A program made the translations under genes and the position numbers. A stretch of DNA of 42,988 bases from IMG/VR virus record IMGVR_UViG_3300014497_000013, positions 1 through 42,988 of that record; one strand, written 5' to 3'. The stretch is from a virus. Below, one piece after another: positions 2,568 to 42,589 of the stretch (the stretch's first letter is position 1; the number at the start of each line of letters is the position of its first letter). The notes under the pieces are model-generated. The model did no database searches and was not told where the DNA came from. It saw only the letters and a program-made list of their open reading frames with translations.

Positions 2568-2670
2568 AGCACTTCACGAAAGAGATTTTATTCTTCGATA
2601 ATATTAATTGTGTTAATCATTATTGTCTCATAAAGCAAAAATCTTAATCAGCGCAGAAGTTTGAAGTGCT
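2568..2670 (+). ncRNA. Candidate structured RNA 1 (closed by a 9-bp stem)
   Basis: No gene is present. Right after the preceding stop, AGCACTTCA (2568-2576) is perfectly complementary to TGAAGTGCT (2662-2670), closing a domain of about 100 nt. Inside it are a hairpin at about 2578-2596 (CGAAAGA with TTCTTCG, one mismatch) and one at about 2600-2624 (nine pairs with a bulged C). Together they give a junction. A strong terminator follows at 2697-2732. It may be the structured 3' end of the early mRNA or a separate RNA; I see no promoter of its own. Confidence 0.4.
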
Positions 2671-2696
2671 TTCATATTATTTTTTTGATTTGGTGG

Positions 2697-2732
2697 GCAG
2701 TTTCCACGGTAAAATTTGGAAACTGCTTTTTT
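2697..2732 (+). terminator. Intrinsic terminator after RNA 1
   Basis: A perfect 10-bp stem (2697-2706 with 2717-2726), a 10-nt loop and six T (2727-2732). Confidence 0.8.
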
Positions 2733-2857
2733 AGAGGGAAGCGTGAGCGGTCTCGCTGAGTGAAAGGAAATTCTCAACGAACTTGAAAAGTACAATAAGT
2801 AGAGTTTTGGTAAGAATAGACCACAAAAACAAGGGTTCGACTCCCTTCTTCTCTACA
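2733..2857 (+). ncRNA. Candidate tRNA-like RNA 2
   Basis: This stretch lies between two strong terminators and encodes no convincing protein. At 2831-2847 there is a perfect tRNA-type T arm (5-bp stem AAGGG/CCCTT, loop TTCGACT). It is followed by CTTCTCT and A, the layout of an acceptor 3' strand and discriminator. AGAG at 2733-2736 can pair with the CTCT at 2851-2854, while GTAGAG (2799-2804) pairs with CTCTAC (2851-2856) as an alternative. Between them are hairpins at 2743-2756 and 2757-2776 and a TGGT/ACCA hairpin at 2808-2823. There is no normal anticodon arm, so it is not an ordinary tRNA. Confidence 0.5.
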
Positions 2858-2897
2858 ATACTCATGTCTAATGAGTTTTCATGGTTACTAGTTTTTT

Positions 2898-2927
2898 ACC
2901 CGACTGACAATGTCGGTCGGGTTTTTT
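2898..2927 (+). terminator. Intrinsic terminator after the tRNA-like RNA
   Basis: An 11-bp stem with one T:G pair (2898-2908 with 2912-2922), a 3-nt loop and a run of T to 2927. It lies 27 nt upstream of the SSB-like gene, so that gene needs its own promoter or readthrough. Confidence 0.8.
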
Positions 2928-2954
2928 ATCAAAACAATTTAAATTTCAAATATT

Positions 2955-3290
2955 ATGTCAAAAAAACCACTTTCATTTTACGGACAGATCAATTATACCG
3001 ATCTAAAAGCTGCAATGATGTCCGGACATGTAAAAATGCAAAAAGTACAGACTAAAGATGGTGAGAAAATCTTTGTAGATGTCAACCTCTGGGTTCACGA
3101 AGAAGCAGATCAATTTAACAACAATGCTGCGATACAGGCTTCATTAAAAAAAGAAGCTTTTGAAAACGGAGTTAAAAACACTTTTTACATAGGGAATTTA
3201 AAATACCAAACTGTGAAGAATGCTGAAGCTACGCAGGAAGATGTTGAAAAAGTAGTTACAGGTGATGACGATGATGATTTACCATTTTAA
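2955..3290 (+). CDS. SSB-like single-stranded DNA-binding protein
   Basis: The 111-residue product ends in an acidic run followed by Leu-Pro-Phe (DDDDDLPF). This is the hallmark of bacterial and phage single-stranded DNA-binding proteins and the site where replication and repair enzymes dock. The body of about 95 residues would fit a small OB fold, but its sequence is far from cellular SSB, so the assignment rests mainly on the tail and on its place at the head of the replication genes. It would coat single-stranded DNA and recruit the primase-ATPase encoded at 5285-8566. The start follows an AT-rich leader typical of this host group. Confidence 0.72.
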   Translation: MSKKPLSFYGQINYTDLKAAMMSGHVKMQKVQTKDGEKIFVDVNLWVHEEADQFNNNAAIQASLKKEAFENGVKNTFYIGNLKYQTVKNAEATQEDVEKVVTGDDDDDLPF

Positions 3291-3299
3291 TACGCAATA

Positions 3300-3494
3300 A
3301 TGACTCCCGAAGTTCGTGCTTTTGTAGAAAACTACTCCAAAAAGCCAAATCCTAAATTGAGTATTGCCCAGTTTTTTAAAACCCATAATCATGAGATTTG
3401 GAAAACGTGCTTTGATTGCGGTGACCATTTCGATATCAGGAAAGAACTTCACCACGACCGATGCCCAAGTTGTAAATCTAAAAATATTAAATAA
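3300..3494 (+). CDS. Small zinc-ribbon protein
   Basis: The 64-residue product carries two Cys pairs, CFDC at about residue 37 and CPSC at about residue 55, spaced as in a zinc ribbon. It starts 9 nt after the SSB-like gene and is presumably co-transcribed. Small proteins of this type bind DNA, RNA or other proteins; the role here, probably in early replication or transcription, cannot be read from the sequence. Confidence 0.65.
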   Translation: MTPEVRAFVENYSKKPNPKLSIAQFFKTHNHEIWKTCFDCGDHFDIRKELHHDRCPSCKSKNIK

Positions 3495-3496
3495 TC

Positions 3497-3607
3497 ATGA
3501 AAAAACAATTCTCAGAAATGACACTAGCGGTTTGCTGGTGGATTTTAACAGCCGTATTCATTTTTTATTTAATCCTAAAATACATTCCCAATGTCTCAGC
3601 AAATTAA
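3497..3607 (+). CDS. 36-residue single-pass membrane protein
   Basis: A short frame starts 2 nt after the zinc-ribbon stop codon and overlaps the next gene by 17 nt, the tight packing of a real phage gene. The product has a short charged start, one hydrophobic helix (about residues 9-29, with two adjacent Trp) and the end KYIPNVSAN. It is too small for most gene finders. A single membrane helix of this size could be a small regulator of host membrane proteins; no specific role can be assigned. Confidence 0.5.
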   Translation: MKKQFSEMTLAVCWWILTAVFIFYLILKYIPNVSAN

Positions 3608-3905
3608 AAATTTAAAAGAACATATTCAAAAAGCATTTTCAGATGCAGAATCTACGGAATTCTTAGAAAGACAAGTTTTAAAATCAAAACTTAGATTTTC
3701 TGAAAGCTTCGTTGAAAACATGAATAAAAACCCGAAAGCAAATTTCCGTGAATGGTCTGAAAAACTCATTGAAACATTCAACATTCATTCTACGGTTGCT
3801 CATGAATTACAGGTTATCGGAATTTCACTTTTGGCTTTGGATGCCTTAGAGCACGATATTACGAATGTGTATGTAAAATTTATAAACGATTCTGAAAAAG
3901 AATAG
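3591..3905 (+). CDS. Helical protein of unknown function
   Basis: The 104-residue product is almost all predicted helix, charged, with no Cys and no membrane segment. It overlaps the tiny membrane-protein gene by 17 nt and ends 1 nt before the next start, so it belongs to the early operon between the SSB-like and the primase genes. I do not recognise the family. Confidence 0.65.
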   Translation: MSQQIKNLKEHIQKAFSDAESTEFLERQVLKSKLRFSESFVENMNKNPKANFREWSEKLIETFNIHSTVAHELQVIGISLLALDALEHDITNVYVKFINDSEKE

Positions 3906-3906
3906 A

Positions 3907-4305
3907 ATGAAACGCATCAACGCCAGGCAATACAAAAAGCTCGTAAAATTCTGCAAAGAAGTTTTTCGGAAAGATAAATACATCTCTTCACGGCTTTTTA
4001 ATCTAAAAATTCAACAGGAACTTTCATCGATGTCTACACGCTACCGCAGAAACATGCTGAGCTTGCAGTTCATCAAAGAAAAAAACGGACTGATCTTTCC
4101 TGGTGAAGCGCTATTCTTTTTAAAACTTATCGATTATCAGAACATCAACAGACTGATGAAGCTTGGCGAAGTGATCATTATAGAAAAAAAAATAAAATAC
4201 ATCCAAAAACCCGGCATCACTACGCTTCACAATTTCCCAGATCACTGGAAACTCGAAAGCAAATCGAGAGGGGTTTTAATTTTTAATGTGGATTATAATT
4301 TATGA
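3907..4305 (+). CDS. Basic protein of unknown function
   Basis: The 132-residue product is strongly basic (many Lys and Arg, for example KLVKFCKEVFRKDKY near the start), which would suit nucleic-acid binding. It has no recognisable domain. Its stop codon overlaps the start of the PP-loop gene by 4 nt, so the two are probably translated together. Its local base use (more C and G) resembles the primase gene more than the PP-loop gene that follows. Confidence 0.65.
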   Translation: MKRINARQYKKLVKFCKEVFRKDKYISSRLFNLKIQQELSSMSTRYRRNMLSLQFIKEKNGLIFPGEALFFLKLIDYQNINRLMKLGEVIIIEKKIKYIQKPGITTLHNFPDHWKLESKSRGVLIFNVDYNL

Positions 4306-5282
4306 TAGTATTAACACCAATCTCCGGAGGTAAGGACAGTCAAGCTGCTACTCTTTGGGCAGAAAATAAATTTGGCTTAAAAAGTCTAATTGGCGTTTTC
4401 TGTGATGTCAAATGGGAAGCTGATGAAACATACTTACATATCGATTACTTTACTCAAAAGCTTGGTATTAATTTCAAGGTATTGACATCTAAAAAATATG
4501 ATGGCATGGTTGATTTAGCTGTTAAAAGAGGTCGTTTTCCTTCAACTACCGCTCGTTTCTGTACTGAAGAATTAAAGATATTTCCTATGATTGATTATAT
4601 TTTAACACTGGAAGATCACATAATTGTAGTTGATGGTATCAGGGCTGATGAAAGCGCAAAACGGTCAAAGATGGAAGCAGAATGCAGATATTTCAAATAC
4701 TATTTTGAACCATACCAAACTAACACAATGATCGTAGAATCATTTGCAGATAATCCTCCGGTATCTCTCAATCAAAAGAAAAAATTAAAGAAGGCTCAAG
4801 ATCGGTTATTAATTGGTAAAGATGATCCTAAATATTACACTTACAGAAAGAAAGATGTTTTTAAATGGTGTGAAAAGTACGATGACAGCGTAATTAGACC
4901 ATGCTTTCATATGACAGGTGATGAAGTTATATACTATTCTTTAAATCGTGGTTATGACATTAATCCGAGATATAAAAGAGGCTATAAACGGGTTGGATGT
5001 GACCCTTGTATAATGGAAGATATTCCAAGTATTACACTTACCGTAAAAGAATCCCCTTTAACTATAATCAAAGTAAAATATGCCGAATTAAAAGCCAATT
5101 CCTCATTTTTTCCACCAGATAAAATACCAAAAAGGTATCATAGTAAAGTAGACAAAAAAGGTAAATCATATCCTACAATGGGCGATGTTGAGAGATACAT
5201 CAATGATAAAACCGCTACGCCTGATATGTTTATATCAGATCCGGTATTCAAATGTAGATCACATTACAATATTTGCGAATAA
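4302..5282 (+). CDS. PP-loop enzyme, PAPS-reductase / DndC-like
   Basis: The 326-residue product has the PP-loop ATP-pyrophosphatase motif SGGKDS at residues 8-13 near the start, typical of the PAPS reductase, DndC and IbrA group. Later Cys residues are in RFCTEE (Cys87), GCDPC (Cys233 and Cys236) and the C-terminal CRSHYNIC (Cys318, Cys325). Such Cys sets in DndC-like proteins bind an iron-sulfur cluster. The enzyme would adenylate a substrate and may move sulfur. There are no dnd partner genes in the window, so phosphorothioate DNA modification is not supported. It is embedded in the replication operon, 4 nt overlap before and 2 nt gap after. The function is open; family confidence is high. 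Confidence 0.8.
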   Translation: MIVLTPISGGKDSQAATLWAENKFGLKSLIGVFCDVKWEADETYLHIDYFTQKLGINFKVLTSKKYDGMVDLAVKRGRFPSTTARFCTEELKIFPMIDYILTLEDHIIVVDGIRADESAKRSKMEAECRYFKYYFEPYQTNTMIVESFADNPPVSLNQKKKLKKAQDRLLIGKDDPKYYTYRKKDVFKWCEKYDDSVIRPCFHMTGDEVIYYSLNRGYDINPRYKRGYKRVGCDPCIMEDIPSITLTVKESPLTIIKVKYAELKANSSFFPPDKIPKRYHSKVDKKGKSYPTMGDVERYINDKTATPDMFISDPVFKCRSHYNICE

Positions 5283-5284
5283 CC

Positions 5285-8200
5285 ATGTCAAAAATATCCC
5301 AAAATACAATCAACGCAATTCAGGACGTACCACTTTCATCGGCGTTCAGAGGTTTTGTGGAACTTAAAAAAGCAGGTGCCGTACAAAAAGGTATATCGCC
5401 ATTTTCAGACGAAAAAACGGGAAGCTTTGTCGTTTCTGATGCAAAATCGATTTGGAAATGTTTCTCAACAGGAAAGTCAGGTAAAGATTTAATTTCCTTT
5501 ATCAGAGAAAAAGAAAATCTGGATTTTCGTGCTGCTATAATGAAAGCCGCTCAGGAGCTCAATATCATTGTTTCTTATGAAGAAGAAACCAAAGATGCAA
5601 AAGAAAAGCGTGAGAAAAACGAGATCCTGCAAACCATAGTCAATAAGACGAACAATTCGTACATCAAAAACTTCAAAAACCTAGCTTCAGAACATTGGGC
5701 AAAAGTCTACATGATACAGACCCGAGGTTTTAGTGAAGAAACTCTGGAGCATTTCGATATTGGTTTTGCTTTTGAAGGTAATCGCCTCACTCCAATTTTA
5801 AAAAATGAAGGTTTGCTTCAGGATGCTCTCGAGCTCGGCATCGTAAAACAAAATGAAAGCAACGAAGCCAATCATTATGATTTTTTTCGAGACAGAATAA
5901 TTTTTCCAGTTTATAATCACAGAGCCTTTCCGGTTGGGTTTTCCGGTAGGTTAAATCCTGAGAATTTGGACAAAAAAAGTCCAAAATATCTCAATTCAAT
6001 AGAATCGCCGATCTTCCATAAAAAAAATACACTCTACGGATTTAACCTGGCAAAAGAAGGTATTCGTTTTTTCGGATATGCCATTTTAGTAGAAGGTTCT
6101 ACAGATGTCATGAGAATGCATCAGGTTGGCTTCAACAATACCGTTGCGACGATGGGAACAGCTTTGTCTGCAGAACAGATTTCGCTTCTTAAAAAACAAA
6201 CCAATAAAGTAGTAATCTTCCGCGACAGCGACGAAAACGAAGCCGGTCAAAAAGCAGCGAAAAGAGATATCGAACTTCTTCTGAAAAACGGTCTTATGGT
6301 CGATATCATCGTTCCTGAAAATGTAGGTGAAGATCCCGACACTATCGGCCAGAAGATGGGAAAAGATTCTATTTCCTACATTTCTGCACTCATGCAGGAT
6401 GCCGTTATTTTTTTGATTAAAAATAAATATGCTGAGCTGACAAAAGATATTCTGCCCGATGCAAAAAAGAAAATCATTCTTACACCGCAAATCAAAAAGA
6501 ATTTCGTTGAATACATTGTGAAAAACATGATGCTCATCGAAACAAGTGTTGACCGAAATTTTTACATTAAATATATATCAGATTCTTACAAAGGCGATGT
6601 TTCGGAAAAAGACATCAATGATACCATCAAAGCTATTGAAGAAGATCAAAAAACAAAAAACGTAAAAACAAGCTGGGTAGACGAATATTCATTTGTGCTT
6701 CCGGAATATGTGACCTGTGAATTGAAAGACGTCTTGAAAGATATCAAAGAATACGGAATCTTCCAGAGTGACAACAGAATTTTTGCAAAAGTAGGTTCGA
6801 GCGAGCCGTATTATTTTAATGAAATTTCAAATTTCAATATCGAAATCGTACAGCACATGCAGGATGAAAAGTTTCCGATGAAACTAATCAAAGTATGTAA
6901 TATCCACGGCATTGAAAAGATTTTTGATGTAAAATCAGATCTGATCAATACTTTGCAGTCATTCAAAAATGTAGTTACCGCTTTCGGAAATTTCTTTTTT
7001 TCCGGTTCAGCCGCCAATCACGAGAATTTACTGAAATATCTTTTCGATAAAATGGGAAACGGCCGAAAGATAGACATTCTTGGCTGGCAACCGGAAGGCT
7101 TCTGGGTTTTTAACAACAAAGTCATTATTCCAGGTGTGCGAGAAGAAATTCTTAATAAAGAAGGACTTTTTAAATACGATGGTGAAAGCTATTATATTCC
7201 TTCCGCCAATAAGAACTATGAGAAAAACATGTTCGCTTTCGGTCCACAGAAGAAATTTAAATCGACACCTTCTGAAATATCCGCAGCTAATTATTTTAAT
7301 CAAGTTTACAAAGTGCACCGTGAGCATGCCATTACAGGAATGCTTTTTGGAGTTGCTTCTTTGTTTCAGGATATCGTGGTGCATTACACGGGCTTTTTTC
7401 CGATACTTTTTTACTTCGGTCCCGCATCTACAGGTAAAGATAATTTGGCAGAAGCTATTCAGTCACTTTTAGGCGTTCCACAGACCGCGATTCAGTTGGA
7501 AGGTGGAGCATCAACTATTAAAGCACAGATCAGGGAATTTTCGCAGTTCAACAATGGTATTTCTCAGCTTTCTGAATACAAAAGAGGAAATCCACAGCTT
7601 GACGGTGTTTTGAAAGGACTTTGGGACAGACGTGGTTACAAGCGTGGTTCCATAGAATCGAGAGTAGCGACCGATGAAATTCCGATTTTATCATCAACTA
7701 TCTTAACAGGAAACGACTATCCCGATGCTGAAGCTTTGATCACCCGTTGTTTGTGGGAAGAAATGAAAGTACAGGAATTTGACGAAGAAGCAAAAATAGA
7801 ATACAACAAACTAAAAGATGTCATCAAAAAAGGAATCTCCGGAATCTCTGATTATTTTATCAACAAAAGATCCTATTTCGAAGAAAACTTTCTGGAAACC
7901 TTCAGAAGCAATGTCAATCTTCTGAATGATCTCGATGCTTTCAAAGACACAACATCAAGAATTATTTCCAATCTATCGGTAATTCTCAGCATTTACAAAA
8001 TGTTTGAGAAAGAAAACTTCTTCCCATTCGGACAAAGTGAAATCATCAGACACTTTGCATCGATGGTCGATAACCAAAAAAGAAAACTGGCATCTGCATC
8101 ACCATTCATCAAATTCTGGGATTGCTTCATTATGTGTATGAGAGGTAATGTGACCGATAGATTGATTGTGAATGTTGATATAAGAATCGACGGTGCAACG

Positions 8201-23973: not shown

Positions 23974-24481
23974 ACAGGTCGTAAAAACTTCAGAAACTCT
24001 AAAAGAATTTGAAAAAGTTGATTCAAAGAAAGACAGCATTCAAAGTGAAATCAAAAGCCAGGAGAAAGAAACTATTTCCAAAAAAGAGACAGTTGAGCAA
24101 AAAAAAGAATCACAGACAGAAATTAACATTGTTGGTACGTCTGAGATTGATAAGCCGATTGAACTCTTCAATATTGAAAACGGTGATACTTTACAAAGTT
24201 TCAAAGTTACCGGAAACGCAAATGTTATCTTCAGATCAAAAACTTCAAAATTAAATGAATTAAAAACTGAGAAAAATTCAGAATCATTAGTTGAAAAGCT
24301 CAAAGAATTCTCTGAAAATATTGTTGAAGAAAATAATGTGAGAGAGCGTATCAAAGAAGTCAAAAACAAAACAAAGGAAGTGAAAGTAAAAGGCTTTCAA
24401 GCGGGGTTGTGGATTGTAATTACAATTGTTGTAACCTTTTTAATATTCATCTTTTTCGTGTATAAATATTTTAAGAAATGA
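23918..24481 (+). CDS. Unimolecular spanin (u-spanin)
   Basis: From the ATG at 23918 the 187-residue product has a lipoprotein signal (MKALMIMLAALLMMGC, lipidated Cys16), a long Lys/Glu-rich part with coiled-coil stretches, and a C-terminal membrane helix (about residues 163-183) with a basic end. A protein anchored by lipid to the outer membrane and by a C-terminal helix to the inner one is the definition of a u-spanin, which joins the two membranes at lysis. An ATG at 23852 would hide the signal and is rejected. The gene lies between holin and endolysin, overlapping both. Confidence 0.82.
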   Translation: MKALMIMLAALLMMGCKTKQVVKTSETLKEFEKVDSKKDSIQSEIKSQEKETISKKETVEQKKESQTEINIVGTSEIDKPIELFNIENGDTLQSFKVTGNANVIFRSKTSKLNELKTEKNSESLVEKLKEFSENIVEENNVRERIKEVKNKTKEVKVKGFQAGLWIVITIVVTFLIFIFFVYKYFKK

Positions 24482-24969
24482 AAACATCACAAAAAGGAAT
24501 TAATTTAATAAAATCGTTTGAAAGTCTTCACGATGGAGATTTGAAAATACCAGAATTGCAACCAAAAATGGACCCATCGAAAATATGGACTGAAGGTTGG
24601 GGACGAGCTATGCGTGGAAATGACGGTAAATTTCTAAAAGGAGAAGCTAACAGAGCCTTAGCATATAAGAGAGCAACCGTGAAAACACTTGCAGATGCTG
24701 ATAAGGCACTTGCTGAAGATTTAATTCCAAGAGAAAAAGCAGTATTAAATAAGCTGAAGGTGCCTGTTAATCAAAACCAATTTGATGCGCTAGTTTCACA
24801 TTATTATAATACAGGTGGTTCTGACACCCTTTTCGATTTAATCAATAAGAAAAGAGGAAAGGAAGCAATTTATAAATGGTTTACTGAAAGATATATTACC
24901 TCAGACGGTGTAGTTTTGAATGGTTTAATCAGACGAAGAAAGGCGGAAGCGGATTTGTTTTTTTATTAA
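24478..24969 (+). CDS. Endolysin, GH24 lysozyme family
   Basis: The 163-residue product has the T4-type lysozyme layout. The catalytic Glu lies in IKSFES (Glu15), then comes the IWTEGWGRA segment that matches the usual TIGYGHT strand. The helix VNQNQFDALVSHYYNTG follows, and the end is GLIRRRKAEADLF. It has no signal peptide, so it depends on the holin for release. It would cut peptidoglycan glycan chains. The ATG overlaps the spanin stop (ATGA). Confidence 0.9.
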   Translation: MKTSQKGINLIKSFESLHDGDLKIPELQPKMDPSKIWTEGWGRAMRGNDGKFLKGEANRALAYKRATVKTLADADKALAEDLIPREKAVLNKLKVPVNQNQFDALVSHYYNTGGSDTLFDLINKKRGKEAIYKWFTERYITSDGVVLNGLIRRRKAEADLFFY

Positions 24970-24972
24970 CCA

Positions 24973-24996
24973 AAAGGTGCCGGATTCGACACCTTT
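24973..24996. terminator. Hairpin after the endolysin gene
   Basis: A 7-bp stem (AAAGGTG/CACCTTT) with a 10-nt loop lies 3 nt after the endolysin stop. Neither strand has a proper T run behind it, so termination may be weak. Confidence 0.4.
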
Positions 24997-25045: not shown

Positions 25046-26842
25046 TTATTTTTGTATATCTTGCAGAAGATCTAATATATCAACAGACATTAAGTCCGGA
25101 ATATCATCAATTACTTTATTAATAATTTCTAACTTCAGAAGTTCTTCTTTATTTTTTTTACTTGTTTTCAATTCATCAAATGCTTTGATATATGCCTCTT
25201 CAAGTTTATGACCCTGATGAAGTAAAAACCAATTCGGTAGATTTATTTTTAAATTATTAAGAAGAGTAACTTCTGTGTAGCCTTCAATAGCTAAAGCTTC
25301 CTTATCAGTAAGAAAAGGGTGTAATTTGTCTAGTATATTATCAGCTATGGCTTGAAGTTTTTGAGAATCAAAGGTTTTTAAATCAATGTAGGTTTCATCA
25401 GCCGAAAGTCCTAATTCTTCTCGGTCAATATACTTTTCTCTAAGTAAAAGAGCCGCAACAAGTAGAGGGTCAAATAAATAATTTTCTATACTATATCTTT
25501 GTTTCCACCCTAAAACTGAGACAAATTGACATTCTGGCATTTCTGTGTTTCTATCCCAATCAATAATTCCCCATATAAAGTTATTACCATACCCTCTCAT
25601 CAATGTTGTTATTTCCTTAACATTATCACAACTGTGTTTTCCTACCCCGAATTCATTTTTTTGAACATCTCCAGATGCGATAAAATTCAAAGAAATTTCA
25701 GGTTTCAATTTTGGTGATAAGATAGCGTACAACCTTTCATAATATTTGACATCATATGGACTTTCTACAAAAATTTGTCTTCTGTTTTCATAATTGATAC
25801 TGAAAGAAGGTACACCCTCAGTTAATATTTTTAAAGCAGCATCTCTTGTATTTGATTGAATATAGGGTTTTGAATCAATCATAGTGTAAATACTATCTTT
25901 GGGAGCTAATGCCACGGTAGTAGGATTGTGTGTTGTCATAATAACCTTAATGCCTTTATCCTTTACAAAAACCTCTTCTACTACATTTAAAAAATATTTA
26001 ATCATTGAAGGATGAAGAGATGCATCAGGCTCATCCATTAATAATATTTTAGGATATGGAAATTCACTATTAGTATTATATATACTAAAAGCTATTGAGA
26101 TAATCACTTGCTCACCGGAAGATAAATCATCAAATTTTATTTTAGTTCCATTTTTATTGTTTATGAGATACAAATTAAAAGGCGTATCTAATTCATCAAA
26201 TTCTGGAGTTTCTACAGAGTAGTTAATATTTAGGGAAGCAAAAATTTTATTAACAAAATCCCATGGAGCTTCACCATAAAATTCAAGAAATTCGTCGGAA
26301 GACATAAAAAATTTATTAGTTTTACCTTCAGAAAGATTTAAAAATTTTTTATAATTATTATTCCTCAATATTTTAGCGTAAAAGGTACAAGCCAAAATAA
26401 AATTTTTATAAAATACATCTTCTGGTCTTGCATTAAGATTCAAATAAAAAAAATTTTTAAAATCATCTTGCACTAAGCTATCTGGATTTTTTTTAACAAA
26501 TCTTGCGATTTTATTGTAAGTCTCTTGTAACTGTGGAGATTTTTCCAAGCTCATTCCTGCTGTCCATGTTGCCAGATGGCTTTCGTAAGCAGATGAATAT
26601 GAAAGTAATTCATATTGCGACAAATGTTGCTCTTCAGTAACATTTTTAAAAGAACTGCTATCTATAAGTTTAATTAGAATTGGATAGTTTTCGAAGTCAT
26701 TCTCAATAGATTGAGTCTTGATGGAATTTAAAAAAAAAGTTTTACCAGAACCATTTAATCCTGTAATTATACATAAATCCGGCAAAACAATTTGGCATGG
26801 TTCAAAGAAACGTAATTTTTCTTTGATAGTAAATGTAATCAT
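25046..26842 (-). CDS. Fused ABC/AAA ATPase - DUF4435 protein (PARIS/OLD-like defence)
   Basis: The 598-residue product joins two parts. Residues 1-350 are an ABC-type ATPase: Walker A GLNGSGKT (28-35), signature LSSGEQ (240-245), Walker B ILLMDEPDASLHP and His305 in TTHNP. Residues 355-598 have FVESPYDVKYYERL, IIDWDRN and SIENYLF, the Toprim-like acidic pattern of DUF4435. The same pair forms AriA and AriB of the PARIS anti-phage system, which is also known as a single fused gene; OLD nucleases have a similar build. It is on the minus strand, clearly AT-richer than its neighbours, and interrupts the late genes, as an acquired accessory gene would. TATATTCG upstream is a near-match promoter. 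Confidence 0.8.
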   Translation of the reverse strand: MITFTIKEKLRFFEPCQIVLPDLCIITGLNGSGKTFFLNSIKTQSIENDFENYPILIKLIDSSSFKNVTEEQHLSQYELLSYSSAYESHLATWTAGMSLEKSPQLQETYNKIARFVKKNPDSLVQDDFKNFFYLNLNARPEDVFYKNFILACTFYAKILRNNNYKKFLNLSEGKTNKFFMSSDEFLEFYGEAPWDFVNKIFASLNINYSVETPEFDELDTPFNLYLINNKNGTKIKFDDLSSGEQVIISIAFSIYNTNSEFPYPKILLMDEPDASLHPSMIKYFLNVVEEVFVKDKGIKVIMTTHNPTTVALAPKDSIYTMIDSKPYIQSNTRDAALKILTEGVPSFSINYENRRQIFVESPYDVKYYERLYAILSPKLKPEISLNFIASGDVQKNEFGVGKHSCDNVKEITTLMRGYGNNFIWGIIDWDRNTEMPECQFVSVLGWKQRYSIENYLFDPLLVAALLLREKYIDREELGLSADETYIDLKTFDSQKLQAIADNILDKLHPFLTDKEALAIEGYTEVTLLNNLKINLPNWFLLHQGHKLEEAYIKAFDELKTSKKNKEELLKLEIINKVIDDIPDLMSVDILDLLQDIQK

Positions 26843-26975: not shown

Positions 26976-27287
26976 ATGCAAGTTTTTAATTTGTTAAATA
27001 CTGAAATTTACAATATGGGTTATAAAGATTGGAAAATGAATATCAAATTTCTTACAGAGAAGATGTGGGAATATTGGGGCGCGTCCGACAGAAACGAGAC
27101 GGAAAAAAAGGAAGTTTTACGAAAAGAGTTTTTTGAAATGTTCGATAAACTTGAAGGTCCGGAAGAAAACTTTCATCATGTTCAAGAAATCAGGGCTAAG
27201 ATAGTTCGAGATATGGATGCTAATGAAAATAACTCAATTGTAGCAGCAAGTTACATAAGAGATTTGGTGATATTTGGGTATCAGTAA
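26976..27287 (+). CDS. Small protein of unknown function
   Basis: The 103-residue product is acidic and helical, with a Trp-rich part (WKMNIKFLTEKMWEYWGA). A second ATG in frame at 27015 would drop 13 residues. It ends 8 nt before the convergent stop of the next gene. No family is recognised. Confidence 0.55.
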   Translation: MQVFNLLNTEIYNMGYKDWKMNIKFLTEKMWEYWGASDRNETEKKEVLRKEFFEMFDKLEGPEENFHHVQEIRAKIVRDMDANENNSIVAASYIRDLVIFGYQ

Positions 27288-27295
27288 AATATCTA

Positions 27296-27598
27296 CTAAT
27301 CATTTTCTCCGGGAGGTTCCCAATTTTTATCTTTAATGTAAGGCGAATCAACTAATTCAGCTTTTTTACACAAAAGATGAGTGAAGTACGACTTAGCTCC
27401 AGTTTTAGGTTCAATGAAAACTTCACTTTCCATCTTAATATTGAGAATCCAGGATTCCCACTTTTTCATTTCCAAATAAAACGGACTGAATAAACATTTG
27501 ACTTCAAAATGCTGGTTTTTATCATCACCGTAAAACTCAACTATAATTGTTTTATCTGAAGGTTTTACTTCTTCTCGAATAATAGCTTTTAGTTTCAT
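27296..27598 (-). CDS. Small protein of unknown function
   Basis: The 100-residue product appears beta-rich (TIIVEFYGDD, EVKCLFSPFYL) and soluble. It is divergent from the SRAP gene; TATATTTA upstream on the minus strand is one base from TAnnTTTG. It belongs to an accessory block with genes on both strands, a sign of piecewise acquisition. No family is recognised. Confidence 0.55.
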   Translation of the reverse strand: MKLKAIIREEVKPSDKTIIVEFYGDDKNQHFEVKCLFSPFYLEMKKWESWILNIKMESEVFIEPKTGAKSYFTHLLCKKAELVDSPYIKDKNWEPPGEND

Positions 27599-27684: not shown

Positions 27685-28350
27685 ATGTGCTATTACGTCG
27701 ACGCTAAGCTTACGAAAAAACAGGTTCGAGAAATCTTTAATGTTGAAACCGATTTTAAGGATTTTGAAGGCGAAAAAATGCTCTCGGGGTTTCGAGCAAA
27801 AGGAACCGTTGATAAAGCCCTGCCGATAATTACCGATGATAATCCTGATTCTGCAATTCTGGGTGATTGGGGATTATTGCCTTTTTTTTCAAAAGATAGA
27901 TCTTTTCAGTCAAAAACATTGAATGCTGTAATTGAGGAACTAGAACTAAAAAACAGTTATAAAAATAGTATTAATAAAAGATGTTTGGTTTTGGTTAATG
28001 GCTTTTATGAGTGGCGTTCGCTAGACAAATTCGGCAATCCTGATCCCGATGGCAAAGTAAAACAATTACACAGAATTCATTTAGATAATGGAGATAAACC
28101 ATTTGCTCTCGCTGGCATTTATAATGTCTGGAATGATATAACTACTTTCTCAATTTGCACAACAAAAGCAAACACATTGATGGCAGATGTTCACAATTCA
28201 AAAAAAAGAATGCCTGTAGTACTAAATGATTATGATCATGAAAAGTGGCTAAATAATCCTGTATATTTAGATTTTGCACATCCTAACTACGATGCCAAAT
28301 TAATTATGGAAAATTTAGAACCGGAGAAAATCCCACAAACACTTTTTTGA
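27685..28350 (+). CDS. SRAP protein (YedK/HMCES family)
   Basis: The 221-residue product shows the SRAP signature. Cys2 directly after the start Met makes a covalent bond with abasic sites, Asn lies in LNAVIEE, RCLVLVNGFYEW carries the key Glu, and HNSKKRMPVVL the conserved His. SRAP proteins guard abasic sites in single-stranded DNA against breakage. The family runs about 220 residues, as here. The active Cys sits in MCYY rather than the common MCGR. In a phage it may protect replicating DNA or counter base-excision damage. It is followed 1 nt later by the next gene. Confidence 0.9.
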   Translation: MCYYVDAKLTKKQVREIFNVETDFKDFEGEKMLSGFRAKGTVDKALPIITDDNPDSAILGDWGLLPFFSKDRSFQSKTLNAVIEELELKNSYKNSINKRCLVLVNGFYEWRSLDKFGNPDPDGKVKQLHRIHLDNGDKPFALAGIYNVWNDITTFSICTTKANTLMADVHNSKKRMPVVLNDYDHEKWLNNPVYLDFAHPNYDAKLIMENLEPEKIPQTLF

Positions 28351-39425: not shown

Positions 39426-41270
39426 ATGGAAACAAAATTTATATCTGAACTTGGATCGGAAGATTTGACAAATATTCCGATCAGCGTAGAAGAAAGCAAT
39501 TCGAAAGTTGCAGACAGCATGTTTACCAAATTTACATTACCGTTTGAAAGTGTTGCTTCTGCTGATTTCATAGCGATGTATGGTGATTACCTAAGCAATG
39601 AAAGCAATAATTTGAAAAATAAGATCGTCGGAAAATTTCAGTTTGAAAACAAATTACACGATGCTGAAAGATTTATTCAATCAATTCAAGGCAATAAGCT
39701 CACTAATCAAATAGATTTTGGCTTTGAAGAATTACCAAATTTTGATAAAAAATTATCTGAACTACCTTTAGAAAGTTTTGAAGTTTCTGATATACACATT
39801 TACGCAAAAGAAATTGCAGGAAAAACATGGCCACAGACTAATTTTAATTTTCCGAGAATATACACTAAAAAATATTCTTCGGATCAACAGATTTGGAGTT
39901 CATTTGATGGCTACTACAACGATCTGAAAACTGATGGCACAGAAATGCGTAGGAATTATGTTGATGGAAGTGGTAATATTTTCAATTTAAATATTATTCA
40001 TCCTACCCCACATCCAATTTATATTTTAATTACTGGTTTTCAAGATGCCGGTTTAGAGTTAAAGGGTGATGTTCTTACAGATCCTGTTTTGCAAAAAAAA
40101 TGGATTTTCTCCGGAACAGAATATTTTGGAAAAGTCAACCAGTTTTCAAATGAAGTCAGAGTGCTTTCCAATGAATCTATAAAATCGGAATGGAAAGATC
40201 ATATTAAATACGGCAATATCTTAATTTTCACATATGGAAAAGAAGAACAGTTGAATTTTCAGGATTTGGTGTTTGTAAGCGTAACTTTCCGAGCAAAAGT
40301 TCAGGCAGATTGGACTTTAAAATTCAAAGTTAGAATCAATGGAAATGATATCTATTCCCATGAAGAATATTACAGTCAATTTTCAGATGTTACCAAAACT
40401 TTTCAAACCAGTATCAATGTAAATTTTGCAAATATTTCTTTTCATGTGGAAGGCGCAGTTCTTGGAATAAATGAAGCTTATGAGGTTATTAAATATGAAT
40501 TGAAATCAAATTCAATTATTACTGTTGAATCTGAAGCTCAGGATTTTGATAACTCTTTAGTGAAGAATGCCAACAAAATAGACCTTAAAAAAGCAGTTCC
40601 GGATATGACTTTTGGCGAATATTTTAGTATTCTCAAAAACTGGCTGAATTACGATTTAGACATTGTTGACAATATTGCGATAATGAATAAAATAAACACT
40701 GAAGAAATTTCAGATGTGAAAGATTTTACTTATTATGAGACAAAGTATCCTAAAAGAACATTTTTAAATAAAAAATCATGGCTGCTAAAATTTGACGAAC
40801 TTGATAATGATGCAAAAAAAGACTCTCTTTTTTTTGATTCTTCAGGGGTAAAAATTAATGGTGCCGAAAATGAAGAAACTAACGTTATTGAAATCAACGG
40901 TTATGTGATGCCGGTAAAGCTTCCGAAAGAAAACGGATATAATACAGCAATGATGATGAAAGATTCTTCAAGTACACTAGCTTTGGTTGATTATGATGGA
41001 ATAAAAGACGGGCAAAATAACGCTAATTCTGTTTCAGACTGTGATTTCCCTGATCTTTTTGAAACGCATTGGAAAAGATGGCTTCAAATGCGGTTAAACG
41101 GGCAGGAGTTTCAATGGTCCGCAACAATAAAGATATGGCACATGGCTTTGTTTAACATCAAAAATTATATTTACGCCTACAATAATATTCACATCATAAA
41201 AAACTGGAGTAAAAACAAAATCAGTAAAGATTATTATCAAGTCGAATTTACTACAGAAACTATCTCTTAG
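39426..41270 (+). CDS. Tail tip / baseplate hub protein
   Basis: The 614-residue product is the third large gene after the tape measure, the place of the tail-associated hub (Tal-like) protein. It has long beta-rich parts and a C-terminal domain with KNWLNYDLDIVDNIAIMNKI. No lysozyme or peptidase motif is visible. Its last 4 nt overlap the end of the integrase gene on the other strand, marking the end of the late genes. Confidence 0.65.
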   Translation: METKFISELGSEDLTNIPISVEESNSKVADSMFTKFTLPFESVASADFIAMYGDYLSNESNNLKNKIVGKFQFENKLHDAERFIQSIQGNKLTNQIDFGFEELPNFDKKLSELPLESFEVSDIHIYAKEIAGKTWPQTNFNFPRIYTKKYSSDQQIWSSFDGYYNDLKTDGTEMRRNYVDGSGNIFNLNIIHPTPHPIYILITGFQDAGLELKGDVLTDPVLQKKWIFSGTEYFGKVNQFSNEVRVLSNESIKSEWKDHIKYGNILIFTYGKEEQLNFQDLVFVSVTFRAKVQADWTLKFKVRINGNDIYSHEEYYSQFSDVTKTFQTSINVNFANISFHVEGAVLGINEAYEVIKYELKSNSIITVESEAQDFDNSLVKNANKIDLKKAVPDMTFGEYFSILKNWLNYDLDIVDNIAIMNKINTEEISDVKDFTYYETKYPKRTFLNKKSWLLKFDELDNDAKKDSLFFDSSGVKINGAENEETNVIEINGYVMPVKLPKENGYNTAMMMKDSSSTLALVDYDGIKDGQNNANSVSDCDFPDLFETHWKRWLQMRLNGQEFQWSATIKIWHMALFNIKNYIYAYNNIHIIKNWSKNKISKDYYQVEFTTETIS

Positions 41271-42484
41271 GCTAAATCTGTATATTCAGAATATATTGGT
41301 AATTCTAAAACTTTTGCATCTATAACAGCATCAATTATCTTCCTGTGAACTTCATCTTTGATTTTTACAGGAAATTTACCTTCATATATTGACAGTGTGT
41401 CACGCTGTGCATGCCCTACCAATTCTTTAATAATATCTCTGTTCTGATATAATTCCATACTTCCAATATGAATGAACGAATATCGGGGCGATTTCGAGTC
41501 CACATGAGTGAAAATTTTGATCTTCGAAAATATCGGCTTCATACGTGCTACATAATTCTTACGATAATCAGCATAATTATACTTGTAAATAGGAAGAATA
41601 TATTCTGATTCTTCATCATGAAAAAAATCTATTATTTTCTGAGCCTCTGGAAATATCCTATTGTTAATAACTTCTCTTGTATTTCCTTTTTCCCGAACTT
41701 TTTTAACTCGACCAAATTTGATATCTGATTTTTTAAGACTTGCAATATCAATAAAGTCGAGACCACCTAAATAAAAGCATAAGAGAAAGTACTTATAATA
41801 AACATGATTGACCGGATTTTTTACAAGTATTTGCATTTCTGAAATGGTCAGATACTTATCTTTAGTAGGCATTTCCTTCTCCATTATTTTATTGAAAGGA
41901 TAATTGCCCTCATTGGTGTACATTCCCCTTCTTATAGCTTCATTATAGATTGCTCGGATAGTTTTGAGATATGAATTAATTCCACTTGCCTTACAGCTTG
42001 ATGATTTTTCTATTTTAAATTTTGTTAAAAAATCATAGGTTATCTCATCATAGGACAGAATTGATTTATAATTTTTCCAAACATTCAAAGCCGCTTCATA
42101 AACACCAGCATTGCCAGTCGTTTTTATTGCTTTATTCTTGTTTTCGAGTTTCTTTTTCTCTTCAGCTATTCTTTGCTGCCAGAATGCATAGATATCGCCA
42201 TCATTTCCGAATAAATAATTTTTAATCTGATTTGAGGATCGTTTTAAATTTGATTTTTGAAGTTTATGTATCTTAATTTTAAAATCTGAAACCTTATCAT
42301 AAACTAAAAAATACTGCGGATGAGATTTTTTAGGTTCTTCACGTTCGAAATCCCAGTGCTCGGCGAAAGAATATAATTTTATTGCAGGATAGCATCTATC
42401 AGACTTAGTGACGAAAATATTAATAACGATCGGGTGACCGTTTTGTCTCAATTTACTCTGATCAAGCGTAATATTTACTTTCAT
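41267..42484 (-). CDS. Tyrosine recombinase integrase
   Basis: From the ATG at 42484 the product has 405 residues (an ATG at 42505 adds 7). An N-terminal arm-binding domain (1-95), a core-binding helical domain (100-200) and a catalytic domain (210-390) are visible. Catalytic candidates are Lys265 in REKGNTR, Arg334 in SPRYSF, His358 in LVGHAQ and Tyr367 in LSIYEG. The usual first Arg is absent: GGLDFIDIASL has Asp243 there, and the HxxR His is not His. Loss of the first Arg is also known from IntDOT of the Bacteroidota. The gene lies 106 nt from the restored tRNA-Thr and is oriented away from it. Confidence 0.9.
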   Translation of the reverse strand: MKVNITLDQSKLRQNGHPIVINIFVTKSDRCYPAIKLYSFAEHWDFEREEPKKSHPQYFLVYDKVSDFKIKIHKLQKSNLKRSSNQIKNYLFGNDGDIYAFWQQRIAEEKKKLENKNKAIKTTGNAGVYEAALNVWKNYKSILSYDEITYDFLTKFKIEKSSSCKASGINSYLKTIRAIYNEAIRRGMYTNEGNYPFNKIMEKEMPTKDKYLTISEMQILVKNPVNHVYYKYFLLCFYLGGLDFIDIASLKKSDIKFGRVKKVREKGNTREVINNRIFPEAQKIIDFFHDEESEYILPIYKYNYADYRKNYVARMKPIFSKIKIFTHVDSKSPRYSFIHIGSMELYQNRDIIKELVGHAQRDTLSIYEGKFPVKIKDEVHRKIIDAVIDAKVLELPIYSEYTDLA

Positions 42485-42589
42485 GTCTGGAAAATGTCTG
42501 AACAAAAATACGATTTTGTAAATATTTTGTAAATATTTACAAGAAAATCACGAATAAAATATCAAATAAAAAACTCGTTGAAAAACAAA

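Follow-up and report, generated by a model that had tools for sequence, protein, structure and literature searches.

A compact ATPase–DUF4435 fusion gene in a putative temperate phage, with PARIS-like domain composition and apart from the catalogued fused AriAB families

The window, meaning the whole stretch of DNA analysed (42,988 nucleotides), is the virus record IMGVR_UViG_3300014497_000013. On its minus strand an open reading frame of 598 codons (25046–26842) begins with ATG and contains zero internal stops. The GC content of this gene is 29.2%, against 34.2% for the whole window. To its left a holin-like gene precedes a T4-type endolysin gene (24478–24969, plus strand, phrog_7); to its right two small ORFs are followed by a conserved gene of 221 residues (27685–28350). 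An earlier sequence-only reading had described the gene as AT-richer and as lying after the lysis genes, and both descriptions hold. Its statement that the gene opposes its neighbours in strand applies to the long ones only: the endolysin gene and the ORFs at 26976–27287 and 27685–28350 are on the plus strand, but the small ORF 27296–27598 shares the minus strand with the fusion. The features of the locus are as follows.

25046–26842, minus strand: single gene, ATPase–DUF4435 fusion, 598 residues (open frame and relatives)
26738–26761, minus strand: Walker A GLNGSGKT, residues 28–35, with K34 (read from the sequence; G33 and K34 at least 90% conserved)
26111–26125, minus strand: ABC signature LSSGE (LSSGEQ in the protein), residues 240–244 (S241, G243 and E244 invariant in 42 sequences)
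26027–26047, minus strand: Walker B ILLMDEP, residues 266–272 (D270 and E271 invariant in 42 sequences)
25928–25930, minus strand: switch histidine H305 (in TTHNP; invariant in 42 sequences)
25049–25804, minus strand: C-terminal DUF4435/Toprim-like domain, residues 347–598 (hhalign against AriB-type profiles 96–98.5%; shuffle control)
25760–25771, minus strand: FVES, predicted catalytic motif with E360 (Glu in 40 of 42, two gaps; aligns with VEG of AriB-type proteins)
25553–25567, minus strand: IIDWD (in IIDWDRN), predicted metal-binding motif with D428 and D430 (each Asp present in all 42 sequences; lines up with IDRD/IDKD in DUF4435 proteins)
25481–25492, minus strand: SIEN (in SIENYLF), residues 451–454 (E453 in 37 and N454 in 39 of 42; also in AriB-type proteins, for example GHSLENYFF in 8ux9_A)
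24973–24996, no strand: inverted repeat of 10 nt where the endolysin and fusion genes converge (not called by the terminator scan)

The inverted repeat is a possible transcription end; promoter and terminator scans gave chance level only. Elsewhere the record encodes an integrase (41267–42505) and a repressor-like regulator (1427–1909), and has matches to head protease, terminase, portal and tape measure proteins. By its gene content it reads as a temperate siphophage. The host is likely to belong to the Bacteroidota, since phages of Flavobacterium, Elizabethkingia and Riemerella encode similar primase and tape measure proteins. The early region also carries a gene resembling phosphoadenosine phosphosulfate reductase (window 4302–5282; phrog_424, 1e-33).

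The N-terminal half is a complete ABC ATPase, as had been claimed: all of the named motifs are present and conserved in the alignment of 42 sequences. Across the whole protein S241, G243, E244, D270, E271, H305, D428 and D430 are invariant in this alignment, and conservation is 90% or more at G33, K34, E360, D364 and N454. The long stretch with the weakest conservation, residues 51–185, sits between Walker A and the signature and is a candidate sensing region. Pfam identifies AAA_21 (8.4e-16) and AAA_15 (2.7e-10) in the window protein, and the NCBIfam matches are to generic ABC ATPases far under their cut-offs. The best PADLOC matches are to defence ATPases; a housekeeping family in their place would have told against the sequence-only reading. 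The retron I-B ATPase-Toprim model leads (82.6 bits), ahead of AriAB (72.5 bits) and then MAD3 and PtuA/AriA models. Searched against solved structures, the family profile finds the retron PtuA/Ec83 ATPases (8.6e-17) and AriA (8ux9/8v45, 3.5e-10). Among the groups compared, the family ATPase is closest to split-PARIS AriA (hhalign 98.9%, E 1.5e-17). The leading retron match (PDLC02914, class 3 OLD) covers residues 22–393, taking in the ATPase but, of the C-terminal domain, just the beginning. We rejected a retron of type I-B, as the flanks of the window gene hold no RT-like or Rfam match.

The C-terminal half had been called DUF4435. A Pfam-A search of the window protein gave no such call and placed nothing above cut-off in this half. 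The assignment needed family profiles, together with direct Pfam DUF4435 matches in relatives, which occur in three of the 42. Seven Pfam-called proteins were used to build a DUF4435 profile, which scores 23.9 bits against the window C-terminus; the maximum is 9.9 bits in 8400 shuffled C-termini and 3.7 bits in reversed ones. Compared by hhalign with the family C-terminus, split AriB reaches a probability of 96.2% (E 2.7e-9), the C-termini of known fused AriAB proteins 96.7% and a compact AriB-like protein (L076) 98.5% (E 2.6e-15). The earlier assignment stands at the level of family profiles (96–98%) and not as a Pfam-A call in the window protein itself. The split-PARIS reference set used here is anchored twice: the Planktothrix AriB (L095) matches solved E. 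coli AriB 8ux9_A at 2.3e-19, and a fragment of a solved AriA chain shares 61% identity with an AriA from Pseudoalteromonas. Profiles of the C-terminal domain searched against the PDB returned chance matches only and no solved AriB or other Toprim structure, so we infer the Toprim fold; nuclease activity is likewise predicted. The profile evidence points to a DUF4435/Toprim-like C-terminus, and not to the lack of one that would have undermined the sequence-only reading. We note that the L076 protein belongs to a compact split pair (47–1748) of a 337-residue ATPase and a 229-residue DUF4435 protein, and is the closest to the C-terminal domain of the fusion family among the proteins tested.

Class 1 OLD proteins and Gabija GajA also place a Toprim-type domain after an ABC ATPase. 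The window protein could on this basis be a DNA-targeting nuclease of OLD/Gabija type and not an RNase, in which the ATPase gates nicking or degradation of phage DNA by the Toprim domain. The fused order is that of OLD and GajA, the ATPase matches GajA and retron I-B models, and PF20469 (OLD-like_TOPRIM), which has no match in the window protein, matches weakly in three of 26 relatives' C-termini. The C-terminus itself, however, is of DUF4435/AriB type: the family profile gives only 1.4–2.2% in hhalign against two OLD-type proteins (L079, L080), which are OLD-like by PADLOC or sequence and not verified class 1 references. The tree described below separates the family from the OLD-like proteins included. 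Nor does a GajB helicase adjoin the window gene, whose neighbours are the endolysin gene and small ORFs, and neither a reverse transcriptase nor a helicase was found as a partner of the fusion. We regard a DNA-targeting nuclease of this type as improbable.

The two-domain composition resembles that of PARIS, as the sequence-only reading had proposed: the ATPase profiles lead to AriA and the C-terminal profiles to AriB-type proteins. PARIS (split AriA and AriB, E. coli B185; class 4 OLD) shares with the window protein the ABC ATPase, the DUF4435/Toprim domain and the motifs VEG/VES glutamate, D-x-D/E and (S/I)xEN. E360 is the predicted counterpart of the catalytic glutamate E26 of AriB, and the acidic metal-binding motif is also present. 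Unlike PARIS, the window protein is one polypeptide of 598 residues, with a shorter DUF4435 part and a separate tree branch. The definition of PARIS includes single-gene fusions found with permissive profiles (PMC9122126). The known fused AriAB proteins of PADLOC are likewise single-gene ATPase–DUF4435 proteins with the same domain order, but the window protein scores well under their members. PADLOC holds two fused-AriAB models, PDLC02982 (570 positions) and PDLC02981 (694 positions). AAA_21+DUF4435 proteins found here score 212–683 bits with the former, and the latter gives 409 bits to one AAA_15+DUF4435 protein. The 72.5 bits of the window protein come from PDLC02981, PDLC02982 is absent from its best 25 matches, and its score is at member level with neither model.

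Forty-odd full-length relatives were collected, mostly from phages and prophages. L021 is the nearest, with 45% identity across the full length. Searching plasmids by tblastn gave four relatives with long alignments (27–47% identity), and about 45 further relatives with strong matches came from scanning viral and genome contigs with alignments. An alignment query was needed to find them, as single-protein pattern scans of the viral and genome collections returned zero relatives. There was no relative in 50,697 phages searched by tblastn. The fusion occurs in one of 395 Bacteroidota genomes; among 369 Gammaproteobacteria none was found outside the genome that had supplied a relative, save the compact AriB-like protein of the query.

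A tree of 67 proteins, full-length or concatenated and unrooted, places the family and two outliers (L014, L059) on one side of a split with local support 1.0; split PARIS, both known fusions and the OLD-like proteins lie on the other. In 60 FastTree bootstraps this split recurs at 97% with full-length sequences, 83% with the ATPase alone and 2% with the Toprim half on its own, where the signal is too small; the Toprim-only tree was set aside. The family does not fall within split PARIS. The sequence-only reading had suggested a distinct lineage between OLD and PARIS; the separate lineage is borne out, but 'between' is not shown by an unrooted tree whose Toprim half has so little signal, and the C-terminal half groups with DUF4435/AriB and not with the two OLD-type proteins compared. 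These results support placing the family, on sequence criteria, outside the catalogued PADLOC AriAB families, and it may already fall within the sets of PMC9122126 or of PMC12796447, where uncharacterised OLD clades U1–U11 are drawn.

Comparison of 44 loci bears out the prophage-cargo setting that had been proposed. GC is below that of the flanks in all 44 (mean difference 12 points), and in 34 of them no other long ORF has a GC content as low, where about five would be expected. In 10 of 39 loci the fusion is flanked on each side by a long gene of the opposite strand. Nine of 25 lie within 10% of a contig end, a weak tendency (p about 0.05). No conserved partner gene emerged: no neighbour cluster occurs in more than eight of the compared loci, and none at a constant position. 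Defence genes adjoin several cellular and plasmid relatives; these neighbours were picked by hand and have no matched control. They comprise GajA and GajB (589 and 481 bits, L013), a type I restriction enzyme (1105 bits, L004), a type II restriction enzyme (70 bits, L012), an MzaC-like protein (213 bits, L009), an AbiLi-like ATPase (74 bits, L011) and TIR-domain genes on both sides of the fusion (L005). The Gabija system of L013 is complete (2587–5710 and 5944–7722, together with the family member), and a probable relaxase gene lies nearby.

The conserved gene at 27685–28350, whose product starts MCYYVD, is probably SRAP/HMCES, a DNA-damage gene. It is 0.84 kb from the window fusion, and seven loci have a related gene no more than 2 kb from the fusion. 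In five otherwise diverged prophage loci (L100–L104) the SRAP/HMCES-like gene is 78–90% identical, and the content between it and the endolysin gene is different in each; this variable content suggests a cargo site. Phages recovered by way of the SRAP-like gene have diverged elsewhere, which allows no base-by-base pairing with an empty site. The proximity of this gene could mean that the fusion serves the phage itself, as a RecF/SMC-like repair, replication or counter-defence protein, and does not protect the host. Weak SMC_N/RecF-like matches and the location inside a phage genome would agree with such a role. The gene is nevertheless AT-rich and on the opposite strand, as cargo would be; none of the related phage backbones recovered shares it; its occurrence in genomes is rare and patchy; and plasmid and chromosomal relatives adjoin defence systems. 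We consider a phage-serving function very unlikely.

We think it probable that the fusion is temperate-phage cargo, a PARIS-like abortive-infection module complete in a single gene. In PARIS, AriA keeps AriB inactive until a phage anti-restriction protein triggers its release, and dimeric AriB then cleaves tRNA-Lys (PMC12409363, PMC11455837). PARIS is also carried by prophages and satellites (PMC9122126). By analogy, the ABC ATPase half of the fusion would act as the sensor and keep the DUF4435/Toprim half joined to it inactive. The ATPase would be altered by an incoming phage, through one of its proteins or activities. As the two parts are tethered, we propose that the DUF4435 domain would be activated within the complex, becoming a metal-dependent nuclease. 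Its target would be RNA rather than DNA, most likely tRNA as for AriB; translation would stop, a second phage would not be amplified and the host would presumably be protected. The fusion could also work strictly as PARIS does, with an AriB-like tRNase set free from an ATPase hexamer in response to anti-restriction proteins such as Ocr. The two parts, their order and the residue types are identical, and the likeness of the ATPase to split-PARIS AriA given above favours this account. With the effector fused to the ATPase, however, free release as in two-gene PARIS is impossible, and the family lies outside split PARIS and both known fused-AriAB families. Strict PARIS action is rather doubtful. 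Action in one polypeptide with no free effector would require an activation mechanism unlike that of two-gene PARIS. It is plausible, if somewhat short of probable, that the family is a third, so far unrecognised single-protein ATPase–DUF4435 defence lineage, spread mainly by prophages across many bacterial phyla, which senses phage infection and acts without effector release.

From their sequences and settings, these proteins appear to form a separate, little-noticed family of ATPase–DUF4435 fusions, mostly in prophages and sometimes beside defence genes. A review of OLD nucleases leaves undecided whether fused AriAB forms its own class or has a different mechanism (PMC10568477). The present family, a compact fusion that has no partner gene and stands apart from the two catalogued ones, comprises about 40 diverse full-length proteins. 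It would offer a direct test of whether a DUF4435 domain that stays tethered can be switched on without release. Since the window protein has no DUF4435 match and weak AriAB scores, we suggest that searches with the DUF4435 Pfam model or the existing AriAB models can miss such genes. Two further loci contain related arrangements. The Planktothrix plasmid NZ_LR882935.1 carries both a family member (L002, 6350–8365) and a split PARIS pair (L095, 2098–4490). In a P2-like Escherichia phage record (L099, 2251–4354) genes for an ATPase and an AriB-like protein occupy the opposite strand between the baseplate and tail-completion genes.
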